This document shows positions 15,526-42,199 of a stretch of DNA of 64,000 nt, one piece after another. Both the position numbers and the translations under genes were made by a program. Source of the DNA: Aliarcobacter lanthieri (GTDB taxonomy: Bacteria; Campylobacterota; Campylobacteria; Campylobacterales; Arcobacteraceae); the NCBI RefSeq assembly GCF_013201625.1, contig NZ_CP053839.1:992001-1056000 (forward strand), written 5' to 3'. Positions within the stretch are counted from its first letter, which is position 1, and each line of letters opens with the position of its first letter. The notes below the pieces were generated by a model. That model ran no database searches. It was not told the DNA's origin and saw nothing but the letters and a program-made list of their open reading frames with translations.

Positions 15526-16215
15526 CTATTTAAATAGAGTTGAACCAACTCTAATCATGTTTGATCCACATTCTATTGCTAAATCAAAATCATTGCTCAT
15601 CCCCATAGAACAATAAATTCCCCCTAAGATTTTAACATCATCGAATATCTTTTTGGTTACTAAAAAAGATTTTTTTATAGTTTCTCTATCTTCAGTATTT
15701 GCACCAATACTCATAATCCCTTTAAGAATAATATTTGGATAAAATTTAATAATTTTTTTATATATATCTAAAGCATCTTTTGGATCAACTCCAGATTTTG
15801 TATCTTCATAGGCAGAATTTATTTGAAGAAGACAAGACATTTTTTTATTTTTTATACTCAACTTTTTATTTAGTTCTTCGGCTAATTCTAAAGAATCTAA
15901 AGAGTGAACTAAAGTAGGGTTTAAATCTATAAGATTATTGATTTTATTTTTTTGTAAAGTACCTACAAAATGCCACTCAATAGGAAATTCTTCTAGTGCT
16001 TCACTTTTTATCTTTAAGTCTTGAACTTTATTTTCTCCAAAAGCTCTTTGACCAGCTTCATAAAGAGTTTTAATATCGTCAATAGTTGAATATTTTGAAA
16101 TTCCAATTATTTTTACAATGTGATGCTCTGATACTCTAAGTCTTGCTGCTTCAACTTTTGTTATCAAACTATCTAAATTTTTTGTTGCTCGTTTTTTATC
16201 CATTTTTTTATCCAT
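15526..16215 (-). CDS. yggS: PLP homeostasis protein, YggS/PROSC family
   Basis: This 229-aa protein is a fold-type III PLP-binding barrel with no second alanine-racemase domain. The PLP Lys lies in IIGISKYST. Other family motifs are AFGENKVQDL, WHFVGTLQKNKI, SMGMSNDFDLAI and the C-terminal RVGSTLF. The family buffers pyridoxal phosphate. Two in-frame starts exist because ATGGATAAAAAA is repeated in tandem. ATG 16215 lies inside the attachment-site repeat. ATG 16203 is just outside it and has a weak GGAT upstream. The gene was probably co-transcribed with rseP before the element inserted and may now depend on a promoter in the element's left end. Confidence 0.88.
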   Translation of the reverse strand: MDKKMDKKRATKNLDSLITKVEAARLRVSEHHIVKIIGISKYSTIDDIKTLYEAGQRAFGENKVQDLKIKSEALEEFPIEWHFVGTLQKNKINNLIDLNPTLVHSLDSLELAEELNKKLSIKNKKMSCLLQINSAYEDTKSGVDPKDALDIYKKIIKFYPNIILKGIMSIGANTEDRETIKKSFLVTKKIFDDVKILGGIYCSMGMSNDFDLAIECGSNMIRVGSTLFK

Positions 16216-16236
16216 TTAAAAATAATCTATTAATAT
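16208..16236. repeat. attL, 29-bp direct repeat (element/yggS junction)
   Basis: Identical to 42171-42199. Read on the minus strand it encodes the end of RseP (INRLFLNG-stop). Its right part holds the ATG of yggS at 16213-16215. On the element side, similarity to rseP continues past the core with a 3-bp gap (TGTAAAT against CATTGTAAAT). The element's own attP therefore carried a longer copy of the rseP 3' end. Confidence 0.85.
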
Positions 16237-16289
16237 TGTAAATAAATGCTTTGTATACCTTGTGTAATCGTATTTATTTATATTAATTA

Positions 16290-16329
16290 ATCCCTACTAA
16301 ATTAAATATTTTAGATAAAAAGTAGGGAT
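16290..16329. promoter_or_regulatory. inverted repeat near left end, candidate integrase arm site
   Basis: ATCCCTACT (16290-16298) pairs with AGTAGGGAT (16321-16329) around 22 bases. The same arms occur near the right end (42033-42072). In both places AAT and a TTATAG motif follow the right arm. Presence at both ends of the element suggests recombinase or excisionase binding, or an operator. Confidence 0.5.
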
Positions 16330-16465
16330 AATATTGTGTATTATAGAATATTATCTAACATACAATTAAATGTCCATAATTATATAAAATACTAGATTTG
16401 TATTACATGAATAGGATATAATCTTCACTGCAATTGATTGTAAGGAATATTTAAATACAATTTAA

Positions 16466-18496: not shown

Positions 18497-18724
18497 TTAG
18501 TCTAAATCTTCTTTACTCTCATGAGATTTAATAGTATTTTCTACTAAAAATCTAATAAGTTCAGTTCTACTTATGTGGATTTTACTACCTATTTTTACAA
18601 CTTCTAATTCATTATTGTAAATTAACTTCTTTGCCATATCACTTTTTATAATCTTCATCTCTTCTATTTCTTTAAGATTAAAGATAACTCCTTGAGGTAT
18701 TAACATATCGTATTTTTCAAACAT
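18497..18724 (-). CDS. excisionase-like small HTH protein
   Basis: This 75-aa protein has a MerR/Xis-type helix-turn-helix pattern (SDMAKKLIYNNELEVVKIGS, then KIHISRTELIRFL). It is paralogous to the protein at 22326-22535, with the same order of motifs. The RBS AGGAG precedes the ATG. It is divergent from the 18871 gene, with the hairpin at 18823-18847 in between. It could direct excision of the element or regulate the module to its right. Confidence 0.65.
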   Translation of the reverse strand: MFEKYDMLIPQGVIFNLKEIEEMKIIKSDMAKKLIYNNELEVVKIGSKIHISRTELIRFLVENTIKSHESKEDLD

Positions 18725-19317: not shown

Positions 19318-20139
19318 ATGTCAAAAAATATAAAACCCCTAACAAATGAAGAGTTAATTAGTGTTGCTCCATCAATCTTTAGTGAAAATCCAATTGAAGG
19401 TGTAAGTGATAAATATGCTTTTGTTCCAACATATAAACTTCTTGATACTTTTAGAGATGCTGGATACTATCCAATAATGGCAAGTGAGAGTAAAGTAAGA
19501 GATGAAGAAAACCAAGGTTATCAAAAACATATAATCCAATTTAGAAGTTTAGAAAATCTTCTTAGACCAAATGCAAAAGATGAATATGAAGATATTGTTT
19601 TAACAAACTCTCATAATAGAACATCTAGCTTTATTGTTGATTTGGCAATCTTTAGAATAGTTTGCTCTAATATGCTTGTTGTTCCATCTAAAAGCTTTGT
19701 TCATACCTCTATTGTTCATGTGGGCTTTACTCAAGAAAAAGTAAAATATGCAATTGAAGAAGTAACTTCTTATATTCCAAAAATAAAAGAGCAAGTGTCA
19801 ATCTTTAAATCAATATATCTAACAAATGCAGAGATGCAAATGTTAGCTAATGCTGCAATAGATATTAGATTTGATACAAATACACACTATATTAAAGCTG
19901 ATGAACTTTTAAAAGTAAACTATGAAGAAGATGAAGTAAATACTCTTTGGAGTACTTATAATAGAATCCAAGAATCAATGATTAGAGGTGGTGTTAAAAT
20001 GAAGAATCTAGTAACTAATAAAAACTTCACTTCAAAAGCTATCAATGGAATTGATGCAACTATTAAATTTAATAAAGAACTCTTTAGTGCAGTTGAACAA
20101 GTTGCACAACTTAAATGTGATGGTTATTTAGTAGCTTAA
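19318..20139 (+). CDS. DUF932 family phage/plasmid-like protein
   Basis: This 273-aa protein has the DUF932 layout: an N-terminal SDKYAFVPTYKLLDTFRDAG, then HIIQFRSLE, a central NSHNRTSSFIVDLAIFRIVC, VGFTQEKV, and a C-terminal NRIQESMIRGG. This family is found in phages, plasmids and integrative elements. It often sits beside recombination genes, as here, and its biochemical function is unknown. AAGGAAA precedes the ATG. The downstream genes are 10 bases and about 100 bases away, forming one module. Confidence 0.8.
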   Translation: MSKNIKPLTNEELISVAPSIFSENPIEGVSDKYAFVPTYKLLDTFRDAGYYPIMASESKVRDEENQGYQKHIIQFRSLENLLRPNAKDEYEDIVLTNSHNRTSSFIVDLAIFRIVCSNMLVVPSKSFVHTSIVHVGFTQEKVKYAIEEVTSYIPKIKEQVSIFKSIYLTNAEMQMLANAAIDIRFDTNTHYIKADELLKVNYEEDEVNTLWSTYNRIQESMIRGGVKMKNLVTNKNFTSKAINGIDATIKFNKELFSAVEQVAQLKCDGYLVA

Positions 20140-20149
20140 AGGATCGTGT

Positions 20150-20761
20150 ATGAGATTAGTAAATTATAAACTTCAAACACAAATGGAAAATTTAAATGAA
20201 AATAGTGATAATAAATACTTTAAAGAGTATTTAAAATCTATTTTAGAAGATCCTAATACCCCTTACTTTCAAAAAGCTGATTATATTGGATTATGCTTAC
20301 AAGAGATAAATTCAAAAGTAGAGTATATAGCTAATGATATAAAAGAGCTACAAGCTTATAAAAAGAGACTTCAAACTGCACTAACTCTAGCAAAAGAGTT
20401 AGTTGCAGATGTTTTAATTCAAAATGGTGTAGATAGAGTTGATGGAAATGTAATATCTTCAATAACTTTATTATCCGAATCAATAACTACTAAAAAAGAG
20501 ATTGTTGTTCTTGATGAAAATGCTGTTATGACTTTGGGATATGTAAAGTTTGAACCAGATATTGAAGCAATAAAAGTAGCACTAGAAACCCCAAAAGGTA
20601 AAAAAGAGTTAAAAGATATTGTAACTCTTATTACAGAAACTTCAATAAATAAAGCAAAAGTTAAAGTAAATGCTAAAAAGAAGAGTTTATCTAATGAAGC
20701 TATAACTATTGAGCTTCTAAGTAATGATATAGATGATGACTCTTTAAAAGATGTTGCTTAA
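20150..20761 (+). CDS. Gp157-like phage protein
   Basis: This 203-aa protein has a central coiled coil (EINSKVEYIANDIKELQAYK) followed by a segment ending in MTLGYVKFEPDIEAIKVALE. The coiled coil plus C-terminal basic strand pattern matches the siphovirus Gp157 family seen beside annealing proteins and single-strand-binding functions. It lies 10 bases after the DUF932 gene with AAAGGA upstream. The family call is by eye. Confidence 0.6.
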   Translation: MRLVNYKLQTQMENLNENSDNKYFKEYLKSILEDPNTPYFQKADYIGLCLQEINSKVEYIANDIKELQAYKKRLQTALTLAKELVADVLIQNGVDRVDGNVISSITLLSESITTKKEIVVLDENAVMTLGYVKFEPDIEAIKVALETPKGKKELKDIVTLITETSINKAKVKVNAKKKSLSNEAITIELLSNDIDDDSLKDVA

Positions 20762-20859: not shown

Positions 20860-21582
20860 ATGTTCACAAAAGAACAAATAGAGTCTTTAAATAAAGAACT
20901 CGATAGTAAAAGAGTTAAAAATAGAAGTAAAGGAAATATCAATCTTTCATATTTAGAAGGGTTTGATATATTTGAAACTGCAAACTCTATATTTGGGTTT
21001 GGTAATTGGAGTTATACAATTACTAAATTAGAACAAGTAAGCCAAGAGTATAATCAAAATGAAAATGTTGTTTTATGCTATAAGGCAATAGTAAATTTAA
21101 AAGTTTATAACCAAACTCATACAACTTTTATAGAAAAAGAAGATGTAGGCTTTGGTACAGGAATTTCTAAAACTTTAGCAGATGCAAATGAATCAGCCTC
21201 AAAAGAAGCTGTAACAGATGCAATTAAAAGAGCTTTTAGAAGCTTTGGTAATCAGTTTGGGAACTCTTTGTACGATAAAAGTAGAAATTTAAATCAAATT
21301 GATACATCATCTACTTATCAACAAGAATCAAACCATAATCAAAACCAACAAAGAAATAATCAATACTCTCATCCAAATATAAAACAAAATCAATCAACTT
21401 CATTTAATCAATATGAGTATCAATCACTTTATAATCTTGGATTAAATCTTGTTGAACAAAATGGATTTTTAATTGTAACAGGTGATGATATATACTCTAA
21501 GAAAGATTCAATTAAAGCTTGTGGATTTAGATTTGATAGTAAATCAAAGAGTTGGTATAAAACCATAGAAAATGTTGCTTAA
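20860..21582 (+). CDS. Rad52-family single-strand annealing protein
   Basis: This is a 240-aa protein. The N-terminal core (1-145) has Rad52/Rad22 features: LSYLEGFDIFETANSIFGFG, the strand EDVGFGTGIS, and the helix SASKEAVTDAIKRAFRSFG. A Gln/Asn-rich linker (about 148-190) leads to a small C-terminal domain (about 195-240) with LIVTGDDIYSKKDSIKACGF and WYK, similar to DUF5710-type modules. Such proteins anneal single strands in phage and plasmid recombination. AAGGAG precedes the ATG. Confidence 0.85.
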   Translation: MFTKEQIESLNKELDSKRVKNRSKGNINLSYLEGFDIFETANSIFGFGNWSYTITKLEQVSQEYNQNENVVLCYKAIVNLKVYNQTHTTFIEKEDVGFGTGISKTLADANESASKEAVTDAIKRAFRSFGNQFGNSLYDKSRNLNQIDTSSTYQQESNHNQNQQRNNQYSHPNIKQNQSTSFNQYEYQSLYNLGLNLVEQNGFLIVTGDDIYSKKDSIKACGFRFDSKSKSWYKTIENVA

Positions 21583-21822: not shown

Positions 21823-22152
21823 ATGCATAATAGTAAATTACTAACAGAAGAACAACTTCAAACAATTCCAGAATTATATGCTTCAATAACTCTAAAAGAC
21901 CCAATATGTAGATTTAAAATATTTTTACCAAACTCAAACTGGACTTGGTACATAATAGAAATTGATAAATCAGATAATAACACTTGTTATGGTTTAGTAG
22001 ATGGCTTTGAAACAGAACTTGGATATTTTTCATTGGGTGAACTTGAAAGTATAAAGGATAGCTTTGGATTAGGTGTTGAACTTGATAGTAGCTTTAAACC
22101 TACAAAATTATCAAAAATCAAACAAGAACTAAAATATAGTAAAGGATCTTAA
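21823..22152 (+). CDS. DUF2958 family protein
   Basis: This 109-aa protein has the full DUF2958 pattern: LLTEEQLQTIPELYAS, FLPNSNWTWYIIEIDKSD, CYGLVDGFETELGYFSLGEL, and GLGVELDSSF. The family is carried by plasmids, phages and integrative elements, and its function is unknown. It starts right after the stop of the 75-aa gene. Confidence 0.85.
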   Translation: MHNSKLLTEEQLQTIPELYASITLKDPICRFKIFLPNSNWTWYIIEIDKSDNNTCYGLVDGFETELGYFSLGELESIKDSFGLGVELDSSFKPTKLSKIKQELKYSKGS

Positions 22153-22153
22153 A

Positions 22154-22315
22154 ATGTTGGCATTTGACTACTACATAATCAAAGAGAGCAAAAACAGGTT
22201 CAAAGATTGGACAAAAGCAGGATTAGAATACTTGCAAAAAGAGTATAAAAAACTCCAAGATGAAAAAGAGAGAAAACGAATCAAAAAGATTTTAGAGGGT
22301 TTAAATAGAAAATAA
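22154..22315 (+). CDS. 53-aa basic hypothetical protein
   Basis: The 53-codon frame has AAAGGA upstream of ATG 22154. It starts 1 base after the DUF2958 stop and ends 10 bases before the next start. It is strongly basic and helical: KNRFKDWTKAGLEYLQKEYK, then KERKRIKKILEG. It could be a small DNA- or RNA-binding protein. The family is not recognised. Confidence 0.55.
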   Translation: MLAFDYYIIKESKNRFKDWTKAGLEYLQKEYKKLQDEKERKRIKKILEGLNRK

Positions 22316-22325
22316 AGGATCTAAA

Positions 22326-22535
22326 ATGAATACAAATTATAATTTGCTACTTCCAAATAAAGTACTTTTTAATCTCAAAGATATAGAAGATTTAGGGGTT
22401 ATAAAAATAGATATGGCAAAAAAGCTTGTCTATAATGGAGTTTTAGAAGTAGTTAAAATTGGAAATAAAATTCATATTTCAAGAGATGAATTAATTAAGT
22501 ATTTAGAAACAAATACATCAAAAAATATAGCCTAG
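22326..22535 (+). CDS. excisionase-like small HTH protein
   Basis: This 69-aa protein is paralogous to 18497-18724. It has VLFNLKDIEDLGVIKIDMAK, LVYNGVLEVVKIGNKIHISR, and DELIKYL. It fits the MerR/Xis-type HTH used by excisionases. It is the last gene of the phage-like module and overlaps the terminator hairpin at 22524-22558. Confidence 0.65.
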   Translation: MNTNYNLLLPNKVLFNLKDIEDLGVIKIDMAKKLVYNGVLEVVKIGNKIHISRDELIKYLETNTSKNIA

Positions 22536-22558
22536 ACCTATTTGTTTTAGGCTATATT
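22524..22558 (+). terminator. rho-independent terminator of the phage-like module
   Basis: AATATAGCCTA (22524-22534) pairs with TAGGCTATATT (22548-22558), giving an 11-bp stem and a 13-nt loop. GAATTCTTTTATTTTT follows. It overlaps the stop codon of the small HTH gene. Confidence 0.8.
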
Positions 22559-22898
22559 GAATTCTTTTATTTTTTCCATAACTTTGTATATCACATATAA
22601 ATCAAAAATATTCACAAAACCTCTAAATCTAATAATCTGTATATACAGTTATATAAGGATTTTATAAAACAATAATTTAGGTTTTAATGTTATAAATTAA
22701 TTATATTATATATAAGATAAAGATAATAGAAGAAGAGTATAAAGCTACTATAGAAGTAGAAGATAGATAGTCTTAGTAAGATGATTAGACTATAGATCTA
22801 GATTATATAGATAGTTAAAATATAAGAATAGATTATTGATGTTATAAAAAGATTTGTATACATACCTTTATATGAAATAAAAATATAAAGGATAGAAA
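22559..22898. other. intergenic region with palindromes before the YfjJ-like gene
   Basis: No gene is visible in 340 bases. It holds the 12-bp palindrome CTGTATATACAG (22637-22648) and an inverted repeat ATAGTCT (22767-22773) / AGACTAT (22787-22793). A purine-rich stretch with repeated TAGAAGTAGAAGATAGATAG-like words lies around 22725-22770. Because it precedes a gene with HUH-like motifs, it is a candidate origin, nick site or operator region. That is inference. Confidence 0.4.
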
Positions 22899-23495
22899 AT
22901 GCTTAACAGTAACAACAAAAAAACTAATAATAGGTTAGATAGCACAAAAAAATATATAGATGATTTATCTAAAAATTACTCTAAGTTAAATATCGTAAGA
23001 GTAGATTTAAGCTATACAAAAAAAGATAGTAAAAAAGTAACTTTTGAAGATGCAAGTAAAGATTTAAATAAAATGTTAAATAATAGAAGAGGTAAATCAT
23101 CTGTATTTGGTGAAATGGTTGGGTATATAGCAAAAAAAGAAGTAGGAGAAGATAAAGGAGTTCATATTCATGCTGCAATTATTTACGATGGTAATAAAGT
23201 AAGAGAAGATATCACAAAAGCAGAACAAATAGGAGAGTATTGGAAAAATAATATTACAAAAGGTAAAGGATTATTTCATAACTGTAGTAAAAATGAATAT
23301 AAAAATAAAGGTGTAGGTATTTTAGACCATAGAGATAAAGAAAAGAGGAATACACTTGATGAGAATGTTTTACCTTACTTATGCAAAGATGAACAAAATG
23401 AAAATACTTTAAAAACCAATAGTAAAGATAGAATATTTACAAGAGGTATAGTAAAAAAGACAAAAAGTAATGCAGGAAGACCTAGAAATAAATAA
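22899..23495 (+). CDS. YagK/YfjJ-type (inovirus Gp2-like) protein with HUH-like motifs
   Basis: This is a 198-aa protein. It has NIVRVDLSYTK near 31, FGEMVGYIAKKEVG near 70, and the HUH-like GVHIHAAI with His89 and His91. EYWKNNIT follows, then LPYLCKDEQ with Tyr160 and Lys163 in a YxxK arrangement, then RIFTRG. The order fits the YagK/YfjJ C-terminal family related to inovirus Gp2 replication proteins. AAAGGA precedes the ATG. Nicking or replication initiation is suggested by the motifs, not shown. The Lys/Arg-rich tail may bind nucleic acid. Confidence 0.65.
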   Translation: MLNSNNKKTNNRLDSTKKYIDDLSKNYSKLNIVRVDLSYTKKDSKKVTFEDASKDLNKMLNNRRGKSSVFGEMVGYIAKKEVGEDKGVHIHAAIIYDGNKVREDITKAEQIGEYWKNNITKGKGLFHNCSKNEYKNKGVGILDHRDKEKRNTLDENVLPYLCKDEQNENTLKTNSKDRIFTRGIVKKTKSNAGRPRNK

Positions 23496-23903: not shown

Positions 23904-26339
23904 ATGGCAATCAAAAAAACAGAACTATATAGCTCATTATGGGCAAGTGCAGATGAACTAAGAGGTGGAATGGATGCAAGTGAGTATAAAAACTATGTAC
24001 TTACTTTGTTATTTATGAAATATGTATCAGATAAAAAAGATGATGCTAATAGTCTTATTGATGTTCCTAAAGGTGTTAGTTTTGAAGATATGATAGCCTT
24101 AGATGGTGATAAAGAAATTGGTGATAAAATAAATAAGATTATCGCTAAACTTGCAGAAGAAAATGACTTAAAAGGTGTGATTGATACCGCAGATTTCAAT
24201 GATAGCACAAAACTTGGTAGTGGTAAACAAATGGTTGATACATTATCAAAACTTATCAAGATTTTTGATAATCTTAATCTTACATCAAACACAGCAGAGG
24301 GAGATGATTTACTTGGCGATGCTTATGAATATCTTATGCGACACTTTGCGACAGAATCAGGAAAAAGTAAAGGTCAGTTTTATACTCCATCAGAAGTTTC
24401 TACAATCCTACCTCAAATTATAGGTATAGATGAAAATACAACTCCAAGACAAACTATCTATGACCCAACTTGTGGAAGTGGTTCACTACTTTTAAAAGCT
24501 TCATCATTAGCTCCAAATGGTCTTAGTATCTATGGACAAGAAAAAGAGGTATCTACAACTGCACTTTGTAAAATGAATATGATTTTACATAATAATGCTA
24601 GTGCAGTTATTGCTCCTGGTGGTCAAAGTACTCTTGCAAATCCATTTTTTGAAGATGAACCAAATGTAAAACTTACAACTTTTGACTTTGTAGTAGCTAA
24701 TCCTCCTTTTTCACTAAAAGCTTGGACAAATGGAGTGGAAAGTCCTGATAAATACTCAAGATTTGAAGGTTTTGTAACACCTCCTGAAAAAAATGGTGAC
24801 TATGCTTTTTTACTTCATATTTGTAAATCTATGAAATCAGATGGAAAGGGTGCTGTTATTCTTCCTCATGGTGTTTTATTTAGAGGAAATGCAGAAGGAG
24901 TTATTAGAGAAAAGCTTATTAGAAAAGGTTGGATAAAAGGAATCATTGGACTACCTGCAAACCTTTTTTATGGTACAGGAATTCCTGCTTGTATTATAGT
25001 TCTTGATAAAGAAAATGCTCAAAATAGAACGGGAATTTTTATGATAGATGCCTCAAAAGGCTTTAAAAAAGATGGAAATAAAAATAGACTTAGAAGTCAA
25101 GATGTACATAAAATCGTAGATACGTTTAATAAAACTCTTGAAATAAAAAAATACTCTAAAATGGTAACTCTAAGAGATATTGAACTAAATGAATATAACC
25201 TAAATATTCCAAGATATATAGATAGTAGTGAAAGTGAAGATATACAAGATTTATATGCCCACTTAAACGGTGGAATACCAAATGTTGATATTGAAAATCT
25301 AAAAGAGTATTGGGATGTATTTAAAACTTTAAAATCAGAACTATTTGAACCAAGTGTTAAAGATGGATATTCAAATGCAAAGATAGAATCAAATGAAATA
25401 AAAAGCTTTATTTTAAATCATGATGAATTTAAAAAGTTTAGTAATGATGTATTTGATTTATATAAAAAATGGGATTATTCTGAAAGATTTTGTAATTTAG
25501 ATATTGGTTTTAAACCAAAAGAGTTAATCTATGAAATAAGTGAATCAATGCTTGAAAAATTTAAAGATGTAAAACTTATAAGTAAATATGATATTTACCA
25601 AATACTTATGGATTATTGGGCTGAAACTATGCAAGATGATTGTTATTTGATTTCTCAAGGTGGTTGGGATATTGGCTCAAACTTAAGAGAACTAATCCCT
25701 TCAAAAGACAAAAATGATAAAAATGTATATAAAGAGGCTCACGATTTTGAGTTTAATAAAATTAGATATGTAGCAGATTTAATACCTCCAAAACTTTTGA
25801 TAAATAGATATTTCCAAGAAGAACAAAAAGCTATTGATGAACTTCAATCAAAACTAGATAGTGCTTCAAGTGAACTTGAAAACTACATAGAAGAAAATAG
25901 TGGAGAAGAGGGGCTTCTTGAAGAGGCTAAAAATGATAAAGGAAATATCAGTAAAAAATCTATTGATGATAGACTAAAAAACACAAAAGATAAAGATGAA
26001 ATTAAAGCTTTAAAAGAGTGTAAAAAACTAATTGAACTTGAAGCAAAAGCAAAAATAGAATTAAGAATTGCAGTTGATAAACTAACTCTTGCAGTATTTA
26101 AAAAATATCCAACATTAAAAATAGAAGATATAAAAGAGATAGTAATAGAGGATAAATGGTTAAAACATATCAGTAACCAAATAAAAGAAGAGATAAATCG
26201 AGTAACTACAAGTTTGGCAAATAGAATCAAAATTTTAGAAGATAGATATAAAGAACCACTAAAAACTATCGAAAATGACGTAAATATTTTAAGTAAAAAA
26301 GTGGAAGAACATCTAAAAGCTATGGCGCTTTCATGGTAA
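23904..26339 (+). CDS. hsdM: type I restriction-modification system, DNA methyltransferase subunit
   Basis: This is an 811-aa protein. It has an N-terminal HsdM helical domain (about 5-150) and an N6-adenine methyltransferase domain with SAM motif DPTCGSGSLLL (about 190) and catalytic NPPF in VVANPPFSLKAW (about 263-266). Beyond about 480 it has a long extra region, with coiled coil at about 640-740. That makes it some 300 residues longer than typical HsdM, as in some Campylobacter-type loci. It is the first gene of an eight-gene operon in which every junction overlaps. Its end overlaps hsdS by 7 bases. The RBS is weak. Confidence 0.95.
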   Translation: MAIKKTELYSSLWASADELRGGMDASEYKNYVLTLLFMKYVSDKKDDANSLIDVPKGVSFEDMIALDGDKEIGDKINKIIAKLAEENDLKGVIDTADFNDSTKLGSGKQMVDTLSKLIKIFDNLNLTSNTAEGDDLLGDAYEYLMRHFATESGKSKGQFYTPSEVSTILPQIIGIDENTTPRQTIYDPTCGSGSLLLKASSLAPNGLSIYGQEKEVSTTALCKMNMILHNNASAVIAPGGQSTLANPFFEDEPNVKLTTFDFVVANPPFSLKAWTNGVESPDKYSRFEGFVTPPEKNGDYAFLLHICKSMKSDGKGAVILPHGVLFRGNAEGVIREKLIRKGWIKGIIGLPANLFYGTGIPACIIVLDKENAQNRTGIFMIDASKGFKKDGNKNRLRSQDVHKIVDTFNKTLEIKKYSKMVTLRDIELNEYNLNIPRYIDSSESEDIQDLYAHLNGGIPNVDIENLKEYWDVFKTLKSELFEPSVKDGYSNAKIESNEIKSFILNHDEFKKFSNDVFDLYKKWDYSERFCNLDIGFKPKELIYEISESMLEKFKDVKLISKYDIYQILMDYWAETMQDDCYLISQGGWDIGSNLRELIPSKDKNDKNVYKEAHDFEFNKIRYVADLIPPKLLINRYFQEEQKAIDELQSKLDSASSELENYIEENSGEEGLLEEAKNDKGNISKKSIDDRLKNTKDKDEIKALKECKKLIELEAKAKIELRIAVDKLTLAVFKKYPTLKIEDIKEIVIEDKWLKHISNQIKEEINRVTTSLANRIKILEDRYKEPLKTIENDVNILSKKVEEHLKAMALSW

Positions 26340-27559
26340 ATCTAAAAGATTGGCAAGAGATAAATATTGGGAGTGACACTACTTTAAAAGCTAGGATTGG
26401 TTGGCAAGGTTTAACAACTGGTGAATACAAAGATAGTGGAGAATATTATCTTGTAACTGGAACTGATTTTGAAAATGGTTTAGTAAATTGGGATACTTGT
26501 CATTTTGTAAATAAATGGAGATTTGACCAAGATAAAAATATTCAATTAAAAGTTAATGATGTACTTATCACAAAAGATGGAACTATTGGTAAAGCTGGTT
26601 TTATTGATACTATTAAGTTGCCAACAACTTTAAATAGTGGGGTGTTTGTAATAAGAACAAATAGTAATAAATTAGACCAAAAGTATCTGTATTATATTTT
26701 TACATCTGAAATTTTTGTTGAATTTTTGAATAGATTAACAGCAGGTTCTACAATCAATCACTTGTATCAAAAAGACTTTATACACTTTACTTTTAAAGCT
26801 CCAAATATTGAAGAACAAAAAGCAATAGCAAAAGCTTTAAGTGATACAGATGAACTTATTACAACACTAGAAAAACTAATATCAAAAAAAGAAGCTATCA
26901 AACAAGGCACTATGCAACAACTACTAACTGGTAAAAAAAGATTAAGTGGATTTAGTGATGAGTGGGAAGAAAAAGGGCTTGGAGAAATTGCTATTTTTAG
27001 AAGAGGGAGTTTCCCTCAACCATATGGGTTATCTAAATGGTATGATGAATCCAATGGATTACCTTTTATACAAGTTTATGATGTTGATAAAAATATGAAG
27101 CTCAAAAATGATACAAAACAGCATATAAGTGATATAGCAAAAAAATTAAGTGTTTTTGTTAAAAAAGGTACTGTAATTCTTACTATTCAAGGAAGTATAG
27201 GAAGAATAGCAATAACTCAATATGATGCATATATTGATAGAACATTGTTGATTTTTACTGATTTTTTAGTTCAAATGGATAAAATTTTCTTTTCTTATGT
27301 TGTTCAAGAGTTATTCAGAATTGAAAAAGAGAAAGCTGCAGGTGGAACAATTAAGACAATAACAAAAGAAGAATTATCTAGTTTTAGTGTAATGATTCCA
27401 AGATTTTTAGAACAACAAGCAATAGCTCAAATTCTATCAGATATGGACAATGAAATAGAAATTTTAAAATCAAAACTCTCAAAAACAAAAGCCATCAAAG
27501 ATGGTATAATAAGTGAACTTCTTACTGGAAAAACTAGATTAAAGGTAAAAGATGAGTAA
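26333..27559 (+). CDS. hsdS: type I restriction-modification system, specificity subunit
   Basis: This 408-aa protein has two target-recognition domains (about 1-155 and 210-355). Each is followed by a conserved helical spacer: EEQKAIAKALSDTDELITTL then QQLLTGKKRL, and EQQAIAQILSDMDNEIEIL then SELLTGKTRL. It selects the bipartite methylation and restriction site for HsdM and HsdR. Both TRDs look full length and the frame is intact. It overlaps the 50-aa antitoxin-like gene by 8 bases. Confidence 0.95.
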   Translation: MVNLKDWQEINIGSDTTLKARIGWQGLTTGEYKDSGEYYLVTGTDFENGLVNWDTCHFVNKWRFDQDKNIQLKVNDVLITKDGTIGKAGFIDTIKLPTTLNSGVFVIRTNSNKLDQKYLYYIFTSEIFVEFLNRLTAGSTINHLYQKDFIHFTFKAPNIEEQKAIAKALSDTDELITTLEKLISKKEAIKQGTMQQLLTGKKRLSGFSDEWEEKGLGEIAIFRRGSFPQPYGLSKWYDESNGLPFIQVYDVDKNMKLKNDTKQHISDIAKKLSVFVKKGTVILTIQGSIGRIAITQYDAYIDRTLLIFTDFLVQMDKIFFSYVVQELFRIEKEKAAGGTIKTITKEELSSFSVMIPRFLEQQAIAQILSDMDNEIEILKSKLSKTKAIKDGIISELLTGKTRLKVKDE

Positions 27560-27704
27560 AAATCCTATAAATAAAACACTACTAAGCCAAACTATAAAAA
27601 CAACTCAAGCAATAGAGGGATATAAAGAAGCAAATAAACAAACTATCCAAAAAGCTCAAAGTCTAAGGGAAAAGTATGGTATCAAAGTATCAGCTAAAAG
27701 ATAA
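27552..27704 (+). CDS. 50-aa Fic antitoxin-like protein (class I, VbhA type)
   Basis: The 50-codon frame overlaps hsdS by 8 bases and the fic gene by 29 bases. It contains TQAIEG (Thr18-xxx-Glu22-Gly23), which fits the Fic inhibitory motif (S/T)xxxE(G/N). In class I Fic systems a separate small antitoxin places this Glu in the active site. The second half (QTIQKAQSLREKYGIKVSAK) is basic. The assignment rests on the motif and on its position directly before fic. Confidence 0.7.
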   Translation: MSKNPINKTLLSQTIKTTQAIEGYKEANKQTIQKAQSLREKYGIKVSAKR

Positions 27705-28287
27705 CTCTTTTTATATAAAAGACACTGATATTCCTATCAATAAATATAATATTGATGATAGTGAAACATTACATGAAATCGAAAAAGAGCTTCTTGAAGA
27801 AGCTTATCTTATTTTTTTTGATGAGTTAGATGAGAGTACAGTTTTTCATGAAAACTATCTAAAAGAATTACATAAAAGAACATTTGAATCACTTTATGAA
27901 TGGGCTGGAGTTTTTAGAGACTTTAATATGGCAAAAGGTGATAGTAGATTTTGTCAAGGTGCGTATGTACAAAATGAATCAAAAAAAATATTTGAAGCTT
28001 TGAAAAAAGAAAATTATCTAAAAGATTTTGAAAATAGACCCAAAGAAGAGTTTGCAAATAGATTGGCATATTTTCAATGTGAACTGATAGCATTACATCC
28101 CTTTTATGAACTAAATGGAAGAATCACTCGTATGTTCTTTGATATGATAGTTGCATATAATGGATATAAATTTATAAACTATTCAAACTTTACACCTAAA
28201 AAATATATTCAAGCATCAATAGATTGCGTACAACTTGCAGATTGTGACAACTTAGAAAAAATTATATTAAATGGACTTGAAAAGTGA
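27676..28287 (+). CDS. fic: Fic-domain protein (putative AMP-transferase toxin)
   Basis: This 203-aa protein has the flap-like segment LYEWAGVFRDFNMAKGDSRF (73-92) and the core motif HPFYELNGRITR starting at His141. The canonical form is HPFx(D/E)GNGRxxR; here Leu replaces the first Gly. His141, Glu145, Asn147 and the Arg residues are present. It has no N-terminal inhibitory helix, consistent with control by the preceding 50-aa protein. It is translationally coupled on both sides. Fic enzymes add AMP or related groups to target proteins; the target is unknown. Confidence 0.85.
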   Translation: MVSKYQLKDNSFYIKDTDIPINKYNIDDSETLHEIEKELLEEAYLIFFDELDESTVFHENYLKELHKRTFESLYEWAGVFRDFNMAKGDSRFCQGAYVQNESKKIFEALKKENYLKDFENRPKEEFANRLAYFQCELIALHPFYELNGRITRMFFDMIVAYNGYKFINYSNFTPKKYIQASIDCVQLADCDNLEKIILNGLEK

Positions 28288-29759
28288 CAAAAGATGTTAA
28301 AGTATTTGTAAATAGTTTTGATGAGTTTATAAGTAATTTGCCATTTCAATTAGCGATTGACAGCTACCAAAGACCATATGTATGGGGTGAAGGAAAAGTA
28401 AATGAGCTAATAGATGATTTAAAAGAGTATTTGTATAATCCTAAAAGTCTTAGTTACTATATGGGAACTATACTTTTACATAAAAAGACAGATGATAAAA
28501 ATCAAACAAAATACTATATTATTGATGGTCAACAGCGACTAACAACCTTGATGATTTTGTATTTTGTTCATTTCAATAACTTACCTAAAAATACTTCTTT
28601 AAGTTATAATTCGCCTGTTTCTGTTAAATACATTCAGGAAGTGAAAAGTAAGTTTATAAATAATCAAACCATTTTTAAAAATCATATGAATGATTTATTC
28701 AATAAAATTTCATTTACTTTTGTAATTACTAATTCAGAAGATTTAGCTTTTACTTTTTTTGATACACAAAATAATAGAGGTGTAAAATTAAGTACTACTG
28801 ATTTACTTAAAGCATATCATTTAAGAGCAATCGATGGTAATTCAAAAGAAGAATTACAAATAAAATACGCAAAAGAATGGGAAACTATCCAAAGACAAGA
28901 AAGTATTTTACCTACAAGTTACGATTTTGTATCTCAACTTTATGAAAAATTTATTTATAGAGTAAGAAACTGGACAGGACAAAAAAATATAATTAAAGAA
29001 AATAGAGAACAAATAATAAAAGAATTTCAAACAGATACACTCTCAACTAAAGATAATTTAGTAAATCTTTATAACAATATAAATAATCAAAAGTATTTAA
29101 ATATTAGATTTGAAGATAACAAGATGGTTCAGAATTTTACAAAAGAACTTTATAATAAAAATAGTATAGATTTACCTTTTACATTAAGACAGCCTATTGA
29201 TAAAGGAGTAGGCTTTTTTCTATTTACAAAGAAATATGCTCAAATTTTAGATTATATTTTTATGCAAAATAACAAAGATATTTTGGATACAAATATCTTA
29301 GAGTTTAGAAAATTTTATAATATAGTTTATAAGCATTTATCAATTTATCTAAAAGAATTATTTATTATTTCTATTTTAATTTTTTATGATAAATTCAAAA
29401 GTAATAAGCTTTTAGAGTTTGCTTTATGTCTTGATTATAATTTAGGTGCAATTAGACTTGAAAAAACATATGTTTTTGAACAAGCACCTATTAAATTTTT
29501 AAAAGAGAGTTCTCTTAATTTATTTGATTTAATAAGTTTTAGCTTTAGATCTGAAGAAGTAATAAATTATTTAAAATCTGAAGGAAAAAGAATTAGTGTA
29601 TATGAAAAAGAAAACATTAAACCAAATGAAGGTGTTCAAGGTAGATATAAAGCATCAGTATTAAAATATTTTGAAAAAGAATTTAAAGAAGAAAAATTGA
29701 ATTATTTAAAAGATAGAGAATATTGGAATGACTATAAGATAAAGGGATTAAATGGTTAA
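28284..29759 (+). CDS. DUF262 protein (GmrSD-like N-terminal domain)
   Basis: This 491-aa protein starts at GTG 28284, overlapping the fic stop by 4 bases. The N-terminal part has the DUF262 (ParB-like) features YQRPYVWGEGKVNELIDDL and YYIIDGQQRLTTLMILYF (about 75-92), with FFDTQNNRGVKLSTTDLLKA near 160. The rest is helical and no HNH-type motif is seen. In GmrSD-type enzymes the DUF262 domain hydrolyses nucleotide and partners with a DUF1524 nuclease. Here the next gene encodes both domains, so the two may form a complex. Confidence 0.85.
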   Translation: MTKDVKVFVNSFDEFISNLPFQLAIDSYQRPYVWGEGKVNELIDDLKEYLYNPKSLSYYMGTILLHKKTDDKNQTKYYIIDGQQRLTTLMILYFVHFNNLPKNTSLSYNSPVSVKYIQEVKSKFINNQTIFKNHMNDLFNKISFTFVITNSEDLAFTFFDTQNNRGVKLSTTDLLKAYHLRAIDGNSKEELQIKYAKEWETIQRQESILPTSYDFVSQLYEKFIYRVRNWTGQKNIIKENREQIIKEFQTDTLSTKDNLVNLYNNINNQKYLNIRFEDNKMVQNFTKELYNKNSIDLPFTLRQPIDKGVGFFLFTKKYAQILDYIFMQNNKDILDTNILEFRKFYNIVYKHLSIYLKELFIISILIFYDKFKSNKLLEFALCLDYNLGAIRLEKTYVFEQAPIKFLKESSLNLFDLISFSFRSEEVINYLKSEGKRISVYEKENIKPNEGVQGRYKASVLKYFEKEFKEEKLNYLKDREYWNDYKIKGLNG

Positions 29760-31656
29760 ATCAAAATTATTTACTATAAATGATATTGTAGAAAAAGATT
29801 TTAGCTTTGAAATTCCTATTTATCAAAGACTTTATGTTTGGAAAGATGAGCAAGTAAAAATACTTTTGGATGATTTGTATGAAGCATTTAAATCAAATAA
29901 GGATATTTTTTATCTTGGAAATGTTTTGGTTGTAGAAAATAGTAATAACAAACATTTTGATTTAATAGATGGACAGCAAAGATTTACAACTTTATGGATG
30001 TTTTCTATTGTTTTTAAAGAAGCAATGGAATCCTTTATTTATAAGAATGGAAATTTTAGACTAAATTTCTCTATTCGTGATGAAGTAAAAAACTTTTTTA
30101 ATTCATTTTTGATGGATAAAGATACTAATTTGAGAATTGATGAAAATATATCAAAAGCATTAGTAGAGATTAAAAACTATTTTCAAAATAAGAATAAAGA
30201 TATATTTGAGTTTACAAAGTTTTTAATGCAAAAAGTACAATTGTTATTTACTATTGTGCCTAAAGAAACTGATTTAAATAAGCTTTTTGAACTTATTAAT
30301 AATCGAGGAGTGCAACTACAACATCATGAAATTCTAAAAGCAAAGATTTTAAAGAAAATTGATGATAATGAAAAATTAAAATATAGTAATTTATGGGATT
30401 CTTGTTCCTATATGGATAATTACGTGGAAAAAAATCTTAGAGATATTGCAAAAGTAAAAATATCTCAAATTTTTTCTAATAAAAAATCAAAAAAAGATGT
30501 TGAACCTCTAGCTATTGCTGAAGAAGTTTTAAAATTAATTAATAATACTAAATTAACAAAGTTTGAGCCATTATCATTAGAACAGATTTTAAAAGACAAT
30601 AAAAATATATCTGAAACAGTAGAAGATAATCTAGATGAATATAAATCCAATAGTAATGTAAGAAGTATCATTACATTTTCAATGCTATTACAACATACTT
30701 TAAGAATTTATTTAATAAAAAAAGAATCTAAAGATATTCAAAAGATATTGGATAAAGAATTACTAAATATTTTTGATAGTTATTTCTTTTTTGATTCTAA
30801 TAATAAAGAAGATGTAAAATACTTTATAGAATTGTTATGGAGAGTTAGGTACATGTTTGATAAATATATTATCAAATGGGTAGAAACTGAAGATGGTGAA
30901 ACACATCTGATTAATCAGCTTTATTTAAATCATAATAAAATTAAAAAGTCAAAAAGTCTAGTAAGAGGAGAACCTGAATCAAATGAAGGTGTAGCATTGC
31001 TTCAAAGTATGATATATCATTCACAACAACTTACAACACATTATTGGTTAACTCCATATTTGTATTATTTATATTTAAACGGTGGAAACAATAAAAAACA
31101 TTATGAGTATTTAAGATATTTGGATAATAATTTATTATCTAATAGAAGCGAAGAGACCTTAATGCAACGAACATATAAGTTTACAAAAGATTTTAGTTAC
31201 AGCGAAAATTATGATTATACTGAACTTAGAGAAGCAAAAGGTGTTAGATTTTCTCATTATTGGTTTTACAAATTAGAATTTGTTTTGTGGTATTTATTAA
31301 AAGATAAAAAAGATAAAAAATGGGAAAAATTTAGATTTACTGCAAAAAACTCAGTTGAACATATTTCTCCACAGCATCCTAAAGAGGAAGATACAAATAA
31401 AGTATCAAAAGATATTTTAGATACTTTTGGTAATACATCTCTTGTATCAAGAAGTATAAATTCTGAATACAGTAACTTACCATATAATGAGAAGAGACAA
31501 AGATTTTTTAATAAAAATAAAGAAAAACTAGATTCTTTAAAAATGGACTTGATATACCAAAATAAAGAATGGAATGATAACTTAGCAATAGAACATCAAA
31601 AAAAGATGTTTGAGTATCTAGAAGAATATTTTGAAAGTGAGATAATATATGAGTGA
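29752..31656 (+). CDS. DUF262-DUF1524 protein (GmrSD/type IV restriction-like)
   Basis: This is a 634-aa protein. The N-terminal DUF262 domain has IPIYQRLYVWKDEQVKILLD and DLIDGQQRFTTLWM (about 65-78). FELINNRGVQLQHHEILKAK follows near 180. The C-terminal DUF1524 HNH-like domain begins near 530 with SVEHISPQHPKEED and continues with FGNTSLVSRSINSEYSN. Fused forms such as GmrSD cut modified phage DNA. It overlaps both neighbours by 8 bases, inside the type I operon. Its substrate is unknown. Confidence 0.88.
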   Translation: MVKSKLFTINDIVEKDFSFEIPIYQRLYVWKDEQVKILLDDLYEAFKSNKDIFYLGNVLVVENSNNKHFDLIDGQQRFTTLWMFSIVFKEAMESFIYKNGNFRLNFSIRDEVKNFFNSFLMDKDTNLRIDENISKALVEIKNYFQNKNKDIFEFTKFLMQKVQLLFTIVPKETDLNKLFELINNRGVQLQHHEILKAKILKKIDDNEKLKYSNLWDSCSYMDNYVEKNLRDIAKVKISQIFSNKKSKKDVEPLAIAEEVLKLINNTKLTKFEPLSLEQILKDNKNISETVEDNLDEYKSNSNVRSIITFSMLLQHTLRIYLIKKESKDIQKILDKELLNIFDSYFFFDSNNKEDVKYFIELLWRVRYMFDKYIIKWVETEDGETHLINQLYLNHNKIKKSKSLVRGEPESNEGVALLQSMIYHSQQLTTHYWLTPYLYYLYLNGGNNKKHYEYLRYLDNNLLSNRSEETLMQRTYKFTKDFSYSENYDYTELREAKGVRFSHYWFYKLEFVLWYLLKDKKDKKWEKFRFTAKNSVEHISPQHPKEEDTNKVSKDILDTFGNTSLVSRSINSEYSNLPYNEKRQRFFNKNKEKLDSLKMDLIYQNKEWNDNLAIEHQKKMFEYLEEYFESEIIYE

Positions 31657-34600
31657 TGTAGGACAAAATGAAAGAGCAACCCAAAATCGTGTAGTAAAAC
31701 TTATTTCTAAAAAACTAGGTTATAAATATCTTGGAGATTTTCAAGATAGAGCAAATAATCAAAATATAGAAAAAGAGATACTAAAAAAGTGGCTTTTAAG
31801 TCGTGGAGTTAGTGAAGCTTTATATACAAAAGTTGAGCGACAAATAGAACAATCTATTGCTTTAGGTGGTGGAAGAAAATTATATGAAGCAAATAAAGAG
31901 TTCTACTCACTTTTAAGATATGGTGTAAAAGATAAAGAAAATCAAAATGATAAAAATGAAACAGTATGGCTAATTGATTGGAAAAATATTGATCATAATG
32001 AATTTGCAATTGCTGAAGAAGTAACAATTAAAGGGCAAAATACAAAAAGACCTGATATTGTACTTTATGTAAATGGAATAGCATTAGGAGTACTTGAATT
32101 AAAACGCTCAAAAGTAGGGGTAACTGAAGGTATTAGACAAAATCTTGATAATCAAAAAGCTACTTTTATTAGAGATTTTTTTGCTACTATTCAACTTATA
32201 ATGGCAGGTAATGCCTCTCAAGGTTTAAGATATGGAACTATTGAAACTACTGAAAAATATTATCTTAGTTGGAAAGAAGAAAATCCTTACTATAACTCAA
32301 AAATAGACTCTAAAGATAAAAAATATTTAAGTGCTTTAGAGTTTGGATGTGATGGAGAAGCAGTAAGTGGAATTTTAGATTTTGACATCATAAGATTACT
32401 GAATAAAAAAAGATTTTTAGAACTAATTCATGATTTTATAGTTTATGATAGTGGAACTAAAAAAACTTGCAGACAAAATCAATATTTTGGAATAAAAAAA
32501 GCTCAAGAACATATAGCTAAAAGAGAAGGTGGAATTATTTGGCATACTCAAGGAAGTGGTAAATCACTTACTATGGTGTGGTTAGCTAAATGGATTAGAG
32601 AAAATGTACAAAAATCAAGAGTTTTAATCATCACAGATAGAACAGAATTAGACCAACAAATAGAAAAAGTATTTACAGGAGTTGAAGAACAAATTTATAG
32701 AACAAAAAGTGGAAGAGATTTAATTGGTGTTTTAAATGACTCAAAAGAGTGGTTGATGTGTTCACTTGTTCATAAATTTGGAACAGATGAGAAAAAGTCA
32801 AGTGAAGCAACAGATGAATATATAAAAGAGCTTCAAAGTATGCTTCCAAAAGATTTTAGTGCTAAAGGCGAACTTTTTGTATTTGTAGATGAGTGTCATA
32901 GAACACAATCAGGACAATTACATGATGCTATGAAAAAAATCTTACCTAATGCCATGTTTATAGGTTTTACAGGAACACCACTTTTAAAAGATGATAAACA
33001 AAAAAGTATAGAAGTATTTGGTGGATATATTCATACTTATAAATTTGATGAAGCTGTAAAAGATGGAGTTGTTCTTGATTTGCAATATGAAGCAAGAGAT
33101 ATAGACCAATATATTGGTAATCAAAAGAAAATTGATGAATGGTTTGATTTAAAAACTAAAGATTTATCAGATGTCGCAAAAGCACAATTAAAACAAAAGT
33201 GGGGAACTATGCAAAAAGTTCTCTCTTCAAAACAAAGACTTGATTTAATTGTTCAAGATATATTATTAGATATGGAAAGAAAACCTAGACTTATTGATGG
33301 TAGAGGTAATGCAATGCTTGTATCTGATAGTATTTACAATGCTTGCCAATTTTATGAATTGTTTGAACAAACAGACCTAAAAGGTAAAACAGCAATAGTT
33401 ACAAGTTATGTTCCATCGGAAGCAGATATAAAAGGCGAAGAAAGTGGTGAGGGGAAAACAGAAGCTATAAGAAAATATGAAATATATCGAAAAATGTTAG
33501 CTAACTATTTTGAAATAGATGAAAATGAAGCATCTAAAAAAGTAGATGAATTTGAAAAACAAGTAAAAGAGAAATTTAGCAAAGAACCTGGGCAAATGAG
33601 ATTATTGATAGTTGTTGATAAACTTCTAACTGGATTTGATGCTCCAAGTGCTACATATCTTTATATAGATAAACAATTAAAAGACCATGGATTATTTCAA
33701 GCTATTTGTAGAGTAAATAGACTTGATGGTGAAGATAAAGAGTATGGATATATTATAGATTATAAAGATTTATTTCATAAATTAGAAGGTGCAGTTGAAG
33801 ATTATACAAGTGGTGCATTAGATGGATATGAGAAAGAAGATATTCAAGGTTTACTTACAGATAGACTTAAAAAATCTAAAGAGAGATTAGAAGAAGCAAG
33901 AGAAAGTATAAAAGCTTTATGTGAAGCTGTAAATGAACCAAAAAATGAATTGGACTATCAACGATATTTTTGTGGTGATACAAGTAATAAAGATGCTTTA
34001 AAAGAGAATGAACAAAAAAGAATAGCACTTTATAAATTTACAGTTAGTCTAATCAGGGCTTATGCAAATTTAGCAAATGAATTTAGTGAAGCTGGATATT
34101 CTAAAAATGAGTTTGAAACTATAAAAAAAGAAGTAATATACTATACAAATATTAGAGATTTAATCAAAAATTCAAGTGGTGATTATATTGATTTGAAAAA
34201 ATATGAAGCTGATATGAGAAGATTGATTGATACTTATATAAAAGCTGATGATAGTGAAGTTGTTGCAACATTTGAAGATATGGGGATTATCGAATTACTT
34301 GTAAATAATAGTAGTGATGATTTTGAGAAAAAGATTCCAAAAGGTATGAATCAAACAAAAGAATCAATGGCTGAAAGTATAGAAAATAATGTTAGAAAAC
34401 TTATTATTGATGAATCACCAACAAATCCAAAATATTATGAAAAAATGTCTGAACTTCTTGATGCACTTATTAAAGAGAGAAAAGAAAATGCAATCGAATA
34501 TAAAAAATATTTAGAAAAAATAAAAGATTTAGCAAAACAATCTAAACCAAAAGGAAATCATACTTCGGGAAATTATCCAAAAGATATAAATACAAGTGGT

Positions 34601-34807
34601 AAAAGAGCATTGTATGATAATTTAGAGCAAAATGAGGATTTAGTATTGAGATTAGATACAGTTTTAGAAATAAGTATTACAGATAACTGGATTGGTAATA
34701 AAATAAAAGAGAAAAAGGTTCGAAAATCAATAGCACTTATAATTGATAACGAAGAACAAATAGATAAAATTATGAATATTATAAAAGAGCAAGATGAGTA
34801 TAAATAG
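31649..34807 (+). CDS. hsdR: type I restriction-modification system, restriction/translocase subunit
   Basis: This is a 1052-aa protein. The N-terminal nuclease has the PD-(D/E)xK pattern RPDIVLYVN followed by GVLELKRSK (about 134-155). The SF2 motor has Walker A HTQGSGKS (about 303), the motif II variant DECHRTQSG, FIGFTGTPLL, and the late motif FQAICRVNRLDG. The C-terminal region is helical. It cuts unmethylated DNA after translocation, together with HsdM and HsdS. It is separated from hsdS by four inserted genes and overlaps the YgjP-type gene by 14 bases. Confidence 0.95.
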   Translation: MSDVGQNERATQNRVVKLISKKLGYKYLGDFQDRANNQNIEKEILKKWLLSRGVSEALYTKVERQIEQSIALGGGRKLYEANKEFYSLLRYGVKDKENQNDKNETVWLIDWKNIDHNEFAIAEEVTIKGQNTKRPDIVLYVNGIALGVLELKRSKVGVTEGIRQNLDNQKATFIRDFFATIQLIMAGNASQGLRYGTIETTEKYYLSWKEENPYYNSKIDSKDKKYLSALEFGCDGEAVSGILDFDIIRLLNKKRFLELIHDFIVYDSGTKKTCRQNQYFGIKKAQEHIAKREGGIIWHTQGSGKSLTMVWLAKWIRENVQKSRVLIITDRTELDQQIEKVFTGVEEQIYRTKSGRDLIGVLNDSKEWLMCSLVHKFGTDEKKSSEATDEYIKELQSMLPKDFSAKGELFVFVDECHRTQSGQLHDAMKKILPNAMFIGFTGTPLLKDDKQKSIEVFGGYIHTYKFDEAVKDGVVLDLQYEARDIDQYIGNQKKIDEWFDLKTKDLSDVAKAQLKQKWGTMQKVLSSKQRLDLIVQDILLDMERKPRLIDGRGNAMLVSDSIYNACQFYELFEQTDLKGKTAIVTSYVPSEADIKGEESGEGKTEAIRKYEIYRKMLANYFEIDENEASKKVDEFEKQVKEKFSKEPGQMRLLIVVDKLLTGFDAPSATYLYIDKQLKDHGLFQAICRVNRLDGEDKEYGYIIDYKDLFHKLEGAVEDYTSGALDGYEKEDIQGLLTDRLKKSKERLEEARESIKALCEAVNEPKNELDYQRYFCGDTSNKDALKENEQKRIALYKFTVSLIRAYANLANEFSEAGYSKNEFETIKKEVIYYTNIRDLIKNSSGDYIDLKKYEADMRRLIDTYIKADDSEVVATFEDMGIIELLVNNSSDDFEKKIPKGMNQTKESMAESIENNVRKLIIDESPTNPKYYEKMSELLDALIKERKENAIEYKKYLEKIKDLAKQSKPKGNHTSGNYPKDINTSGKRALYDNLEQNEDLVLRLDTVLEISITDNWIGNKIKEKKVRKSIALIIDNEEQIDKIMNIIKEQDEYK

Positions 34808-42012: not shown

Positions 42013-42032
42013 ATTTACACCTTTGGAGTTCA

Positions 42033-42072
42033 ATCCCTACTTTTTTATAAAAAATCGTAAAAAAGTAGGGAT
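42033..42072. promoter_or_regulatory. inverted repeat upstream of the integrase, candidate arm site
   Basis: ATCCCTACTTTTTT (42033-42046) pairs perfectly with AAAAAAGTAGGGAT (42059-42072). The outer 9 bases match the repeat at 16290-16329 near the left end. It lies directly before the integrase start, so it could be a recombinase site, an operator, or both. Confidence 0.55.
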
Positions 42073-42127
42073 AATTGTAGGAAATTGTATTTTATTATAG
42101 CTGAATATTAGTTTTAATTTAGTAATA

Positions 42128-42170: not shown

Positions 42171-42199
42171 TTATCCATTTAAAAATAATCTATTAATAT
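42171..42199. repeat. attR, 29-bp direct repeat (rseP/element junction)
   Basis: Identical to 16208-16236. It forms the last codons and stop of the intact rseP gene, with rseP sequence on its right and element DNA on its left. Confidence 0.85.

Follow-up and report, generated by a model that had tools for sequence, protein, structure and literature searches.

Genes resembling inovirus Gp2 have been reported as part of the core of the Pseudomonas islands I23, I44, and I55, and a jumbo phage transduces one of these islands; the portion of that report available to us does not discuss an origin in them (PMC12595487). For the PICMI satellites of Vibrionaceae, helper-induced copying consistent with a rolling circle is described in the accessible part of the source (PMC10803314). 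SGI1, as presented in the sections at hand, carries its own RepA and oriV and is thus an earlier example of an integrated island with plasmid-like replication once excised (PMC7826253). Among open-licence papers, we found no work describing an origin for the YagK/YfjJ (inovirus Gp2) family, and neither the database records nor the paper listings that we consulted gave an assigned function for E. coli K-12 YfjJ or YagK. Among viruses, the Rep of CRESS-DNA viruses and geminiviruses is an HUH protein with a YxxK motif, its binding sites lie upstream of rep, and the viral sequence is NANTATTAC.

Here, we analyzed a stretch of 64,000 nucleotides from Aliarcobacter lanthieri (the window), which encodes a member of the YagK/YfjJ family, referred to below as REP. 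Sequence comparisons lead us to propose, with a probability of roughly 60%, that REP and the region upstream of its gene represent an HUH initiator and its cognate origin, used after excision of the surrounding element.

Results

REP is encoded within an integrative element

The REP gene lies in an element of ~26 kb integrated at the 3′ end of rseP. The element is bounded by 29-bp direct att repeats of perfect identity, attL at 16208 to 16236 and attR, which forms the 3′ end of rseP, at 42171 to 42199. A tyrosine recombinase (integrase) is encoded at 40726 to 42033 on the minus strand. In 22 of the 27 same-genus loci that we checked, yggS lies directly beside rseP (both names being assigned from the protein sequences) at a distance of 9 to 21 bp, the expected empty site. 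In the remaining five, yggS was out of reach in four and separated from rseP by 764 bp in one; two of these five loci contained related integrase pieces at the site. The integrase, the direct att repeats, and the empty site in relatives are thus all present, and the element is integrative. The initial annotation had suggested that, if the protein is a nickase, the element may circularize and replicate or be mobilized. Of this view, an integrative element with att repeats and integrase stands, as does the importance of the upstream region, where a conserved cis element is associated with the REP gene. Similar CCCTACT...AGTAGGG inverted repeats were also seen just within both ends of the element (16282 to 16330 and 42030 to 42080) and are likely to be integrase sites.

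Upstream of REP, a conserved operon on the plus strand encodes a DUF932 protein (19318 to 20139), a Gp157/Mu Gam–like protein (20150 to 20761), a Rad52/22-family annealing protein (20860 to 21582), and a DUF2958 protein (21823 to 22152). It is followed, in an AlpA-like position, by a small HTH_17/excisionase-like protein (22326 to 22535, plus strand); a second such protein is encoded at 18497 to 18724 on the minus strand. Both remain under the curated cutoffs, and when the element's HTH was tested for membership in the AlpA family of regulators, it scored 22.8 bits against a cutoff of 27 for HTH_17 and 20 against 28.8 for the TIGR01764 excisionase model. By eye, a perfect inverted repeat with 8-bp arms (ATAGCCTA/TAGGCTAT) and the T-rich run behind it, at 22527 to 22555 (plus strand), resemble a terminator and may mark the end of the upstream operon; a terminator scan allowing loops of 3 to 8 listed none. 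The cargo downstream of REP consists of type I restriction-modification genes on the plus strand (23904 to 34807), comprising hsdM (23904 to 26339), hsdS (26333 to 27559), and hsdR (31649 to 34807). One Fic-like and two DUF262-like genes are located inside this cluster (27676 to 31656).

REP carries the active-site residues of a single-tyrosine HUH nuclease

The REP open reading frame (22899 to 23495, plus strand) encodes 198 amino acids and is present in a single copy in the genome. It contains H89-I-H91 and Y160-L-C-K163, exactly as the initial annotation had read them, and we found that these residues together with E81 are invariant in 20 of 20 aligned sequences (that of the window and 19 relatives 44 to 65% identical to it, including one nearly identical pair). 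The motifs are therefore more than a chance occurrence. Among 47 further, mostly distant members, which include YfjJ and YagK of E. coli K-12, the glutamate, both histidines, and the tyrosine were retained in all, and the lysine in 45, while the residue between the two histidines varied. Because of this invariance, the HUH active-site residues can be regarded as kept in every examined member, with the lysine as the exception in two.

Profile searches placed REP in the same family. It scored 33.8 bits with PF11726, the YagK/YfjJ C-terminal domain (curated cutoff of 25.8), and 33.7 bits when the whole genome was searched. PF23343, a replication-associated protein ORF2/G2P family, was matched by a narrow margin (28.1 bits versus a cutoff of 27.8). 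The earlier description of a YfjJ-type, HUH-like protein is thus backed by both families and by the invariant Glu...His-x-His...Tyr-x-x-Lys set.

The AlphaFold2 model of REP was of good quality (pLDDT of 86 and pTM of 0.83). The initial annotation had named a comparison with HUH folds as a check of its reading, and the best named Protein Data Bank (PDB) matches, headed by AAV Rep68 and parvovirus NS1 (B19 and MVM) and including Helitron transposase, agreed with it, albeit at modest scores: the best Foldseek E value was 0.017, with none below 0.001, and VIA Z reached at most 8.0, where unrelated folds reach 6 to 7. A profile search of PDB sequences with REP returned parvovirus NS1 only (two chains, E of 0.33 and 0.38). 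In a library of viral structures, inovirus Gp2 ranked first (E of 4.2e-9). HUH families missing from the fold-library lists were not counted as evidence. The predicted fold backs the motif evidence but would not suffice by itself. Together, Pfam matches, predicted fold, and motif order agree that REP belongs to the YagK/YfjJ (inovirus Gp2) family and has a predicted single-tyrosine HUH nuclease active site.

The upstream region contains four conserved blocks

The DNA preceding REP had been described as noncoding, and indeed no open reading frame of 50 amino acids or more was found on the plus strand between 22535 and 22899. The same annotation had highlighted a palindrome and a separate inverted repeat, which fared less well as evidence. 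A 12-bp perfect palindrome, CTGTATATACAG, is present at about 22637 to 22648; however, when 22559 to 22898 was shuffled 1000 times with dinucleotides preserved, 448 of the shuffles contained a palindrome at least as long, and we rejected it as chance level. Inverted repeats were rejected likewise, as they are abundant in this AT-rich DNA (25 listed pairs). A search of 22300 to 23000 gave no Rfam match up to an E value of 1 that would indicate a structured RNA, and a promoter scan was uninformative (10 found versus 11.5 expected).

What does exceed chance are four conserved blocks, absent from the initial description, through which the region appears to matter. The upstream regions of 12 loci, which are otherwise hard to align, share block A (CCTAACTTTGTATAT), block B (TTTGTATAC with its flanks), block C (TTTAGGTTATTAATATTATT), and, close to the start codon, block D (TTTGTATACATACCTTTA). 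In the window, all on the plus strand, block A is ATAACTTTGTATATC (22578 to 22592); block B (22636 to 22653) contains the palindrome CTGTATATACAG, which coincides with the window's version of a block that is TTTGTATACnAAG-like in relatives; block C is TTTAGGTTTTAATGTTATAAAT (22676 to 22697) and may be the site of nicking or unwinding; and block D is TTTGTATACATACCTTTATATGAAAT (22853 to 22878), located ~45 bp before the start codon, where it could serve as an autoregulatory REP site. In many loci, block C contains TAATATTAT or TAGTATTAT, the window version being TAATGTTAT. With further loci added, the blocks can be followed before the REP gene in a total of 30, from Campylobacterota and Betaproteobacteria, two different phyla; the fit is weak or partial in L022, L038, L041, and L045.

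A profile model of the whole A-C region matched the window at 22572 to 22704 on the plus strand (53.8 bits, E of 1.9e-14), the window being one of its training members. We found that a profile built from 22 Campylobacterota sites recovered five of the six betaproteobacterial sites in 1.45 Mb, with E values from 4e-7 to 2e-4; the sixth was partial (E of 4.2, the best reversed control having an E of 4). The reverse cross-test was weak, as the six-site betaproteobacterial model found its best Campylobacterota site at an E of 0.011 and 4 of 24 below 0.1, with the best reversed control at 0.25. The profile models were built without L041 and L045; of these, the full model recovered L045 at 8.8e-8 and L041 poorly (E of 1.8). 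All hits of the full model with an E value below 0.001 lay upstream of REP. When the order's 398 genomes were searched with a strict A..C pattern, 7 contained it, invariably in front of REP, and none contained its reversal; the window itself fails this pattern because of its variant block C.

The window holds few copies of the hexamer GTATAC (4 versus about 20 expected), and across ten 20-kb loci 18 of its 22 copies fell in the REP upstream region. Within the element it occurs only twice, at 16253 beside attL (CTTTGTATACCTTG) and at 22856 in block D.

Folding of the DNA did not emerge as a general feature. The comparisons used here cover three loci, L058, L059, and that of the window; in the last, block C folded no better than shuffled sequences (z of 0.17). 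Pairing of the GGTT of block C with an AACC partner is possible in five of six betaproteobacterial loci and in 1 of 24 Campylobacterota loci (L052), and the window contains no such partner; we therefore rejected a CRESS-style stem-loop as a common element. The window's block C, lacking a stable stem and an AACC partner, thus differs from a CRESS-type origin, in which the nonanucleotide sits in a stem loop.

Blocks A to C form a rigid unit that covaries with REP

In the 28 of the 30 loci for which the spacing was summarized, the distance between blocks A and C was 86 to 87 bp (3 loci), 97 to 99 bp (23 loci), or 108 bp (2 loci), so that the classes step by about one helical turn; for the window, the position of block C was set by its sequence, here and in the scoring of distant members described below. 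Blocks A and B were separated by 48 to 58 bp in 29 of the 30 loci. In contrast, the distance from block C to the start codon varied from 144 to 330 bp. Because the A-C spacing is fixed while the distance to the gene varies, A-C behaves as an independent, rigid unit rather than as a promoter at a fixed distance. This geometry speaks for a rigid DNA-protein complex, presumably formed independently of the promoter.

Divergence of the cis region correlated with that of REP (Mantel r of 0.60, P = 0.0002, 15 loci) and, over the same loci, not with that of Rad52 (r of −0.07) or DUF932 (r of 0.11). The partial correlation between the cis region and REP was 0.53 when controlling for DUF2958 (15 loci) and 0.51 when controlling for h22154 (11 loci), these two being the closest genes upstream. 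The residual correlations of the cis region to these two genes, 0.21 for DUF2958 and 0.35 for h22154, were smaller than that to REP, as linkage would give. Plain proximity may account for part of the covariation.

The main alternative to an origin is a regulatory region, in which A-C would contain operators bound by the AlpA-like HTH protein or by REP acting as a repressor and would control rep and perhaps excision. It would suit the palindromic GTATAC core, which is what a dimeric regulator would be expected to bind, the position of block D ~45 bp from the start codon, the GTATAC copy beside attL, and the HTH gene directly upstream of REP. We nevertheless consider it unlikely, since the spacing of A-C is rigid even though its distance to the gene is not, block C is not a palindrome but AT-rich, and A-C divergence follows that of REP more closely than that of the upstream genes compared (the HTH gene at 22326 to 22535 being outside this comparison). 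The covariation with REP and the variable distance to the gene make a purely regulatory A-C less probable.

REP relatives occur in diverse contexts

REP matches were found in 14 of the order's 398 genomes (12 of them strong, with that of the window counted), in 15 of 104 genomes of the family, and in 5 of 44 of a second family; a scan of genome contigs gave 42 REP loci. Betaproteobacterial REPs (Dechloromonas, Rhodocyclaceae, Zoogloeaceae, and Nitrosomonas) were 47 to 53% identical to that of the window, and distant ones 29 to 42%. We read 11 relatives at length, one of which lies on a short contig. In all of them REP is preceded by the DUF932-Gp157-Rad52-DUF2958 operon, in whole or in part, and the genes that follow differ and are restriction-modification–like in several. 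A relative of the HTH protein at 22326 to 22535 adjoins REP in only 1 of these 11. No gene of the operon was found in the six betaproteobacterial loci; in four of five tested, a DUF3987 gene lies upstream of rep, and the fifth has an AAA-domain protein instead. In one relative (L059, 6366 to 7511), a second, weakly matching YagK/YfjJ protein is encoded directly upstream of the conserved one.

REP relatives were also detected on plasmids and in phages. Plasmids of Acinetobacter, Allochromatium, and Psychrobacter (L036, L037, and L127) carry Gp2-type genes close to genes for lambda exonuclease and for DUF932 or RecT proteins, neighborhoods that echo the Rad52/DUF932 operon of the window. Two plasmids with REP relatives carry their own annotated Rep, and none was seen in the examined part of plasmid pALVIN02. 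The Campylobacterota plasmids that we searched contained no REP relative, and E. coli genomes gave no match to REP at the DNA level. Phage matches were restricted to two records, both of a single Acinetobacter phage, and one relative was found among viral contigs. None of the six short contigs checked had the terminal overlap that would be a sign of a circular contig.

We scored blocks A and C jointly in 33 distant members and obtained P ≤ 0.05 in 10 of the 18 loci already inspected and in 5 of the 15 others. The matrix for block A was built without L045, L041, and L022, and that for block C additionally without L038, the window, L042, L023, L024, and L018. A TAACT...GGTT spacing test, which was picked after looking at the data, was positive in 11 of 33 (1.0 expected), mostly at 97 to 104 bp, with only 2 positives among the 15 loci not inspected beforehand. 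In E. coli M11, GGTTAATTAGTATTATTAAT is located some 620 bp ahead of gp2, and the regions upstream of K-12 yfjJ and yagK gave no significant match to A+C. Thus, the A-C architecture is clear only in the clade of 30 loci and partly recognizable beyond it, and for a family-wide origin these data are no more than suggestive.

A further possibility is that REP is a mobilization relaxase and A-C an oriT, so that the excised element would be nicked and moved by a helper conjugative system. HUH nucleases include relaxases, and no transfer genes were recognized among the element genes that we scanned, as in mobilizable elements. However, the nearest experimentally studied carriers of Gp2-like genes that we found are islands, and the one whose transfer is described in the available part of the report travels by phage and not by conjugation (PMC12595487). 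The curated match of REP is, moreover, to the replication-associated ORF2/G2P family, and we consider the relaxase improbable.

Block A is ATAACTTTGTATA in the window and ATAACTTCGTATA upstream of REP in L023 and L024, the latter being the same as a loxP arm. DUF932, Gp157, and Rad52 of the window are 96 to 98% identical to those of one relative (L023/L026), but REP is only 50% identical, which indicates that the rep module has been exchanged separately. A lox/dif-like site-specific recombination site that has A, B, and D as its arms and exchanges rep or the cargo module is very improbable: the likeness of ATAACTTYGTATA in block A to a loxP arm and the differing histories of operon and rep (L023 versus the window: distance of 0.03 for Rad52 and 0.51 for REP) would fit, but there is no inverted partner arm 6 to 8 bp away, A and B being 48 to 58 bp apart, and block C would be left without an explanation. 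Both the oriT and the recombination site are less likely than an origin used by REP.

Discussion

In the model that we favor, REP would be a single-domain HUH endonuclease that acts as the replication initiator of the ~26-kb integrative element. The integrase would first excise the element at the rseP att site. REP would then bind the GTATAC-type sites A and B within the fixed-geometry region at 22578 to 22697 and nick at or near the AT-rich block C, where the DNA would also be melted. Tyr160 would covalently hold the 5′ end, and rolling-circle–type copying of the circle would begin, probably with the assistance of a host helicase because REP has none. Block D, located beside the start codon, could let REP limit its own expression.

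Tentatively, this proposal may be extended to YagK/YfjJ/inovirus Gp2 proteins at large, which are named by similarity alone and are encoded in cryptic islands from CP4-57 of E. coli to Campylobacterota; they would then be dedicated HUH initiators, each with a cognate upstream A-B-C origin of fixed helical geometry; we regard this generalization as less probable than the reading of the window itself. If true, a widespread class of chromosomal islands would replicate by rolling circle when excised. It would also explain how a large group of defense-carrying islands multiplies before spreading and would provide a sequence tag with which to find them. The conserved geometry of the candidate origin makes a direct test possible, both of the cutting of DNA by REP and of the self-copying of the island.

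Within its own family, REP shares the E-HxH-Y residues with PF11726 members such as YfjJ in CP4-57 and YagK in CP4-6 of E. coli K-12; the N-terminal extension of most distant members is missing from the 198–amino acid REP. Compared with CRESS-DNA viruses and geminiviruses, the TAATATTAT or TAGTATTAT of block C in many loci, and TAATGTTAT in the window, stand against the viral NANTATTAC, and REP differs in having no helicase domain and the region in having no conserved stem-loop. To our knowledge, there is no helper phage for the window element.

Among chromosomal islands, the AlpA-type Pseudomonas islands I23, I44, and I55 are described, in the portion of the report at hand, as combining an integrase, AlpA/HTH, recombination, and inovirus Gp2–like core with defense cargo, as does the window element with its candidate AlpA-like HTH gene; it has Rad52, Gp157, and DUF932 where these islands are reported to have YqaJ and RadC (PMC12595487). 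PICMI satellites have an integrase and AlpA, of which the window element has the integrase and an AlpA-like candidate, and their primase family, DUF3987, is the one found upstream of rep in four of five betaproteobacterial loci; however, in the available text a primase and not an HUH initiator is described for PICMI, and the window element has no DUF3987 among the 10 proteins scanned with Pfam (PMC10803314). Last, the RepA of SGI1 is related to that of IncN2/N3 and is not described as an HUH protein in the part of the source available, so that SGI1 and the window element would share replication after excision while differing in the type of initiator (PMC7826253).
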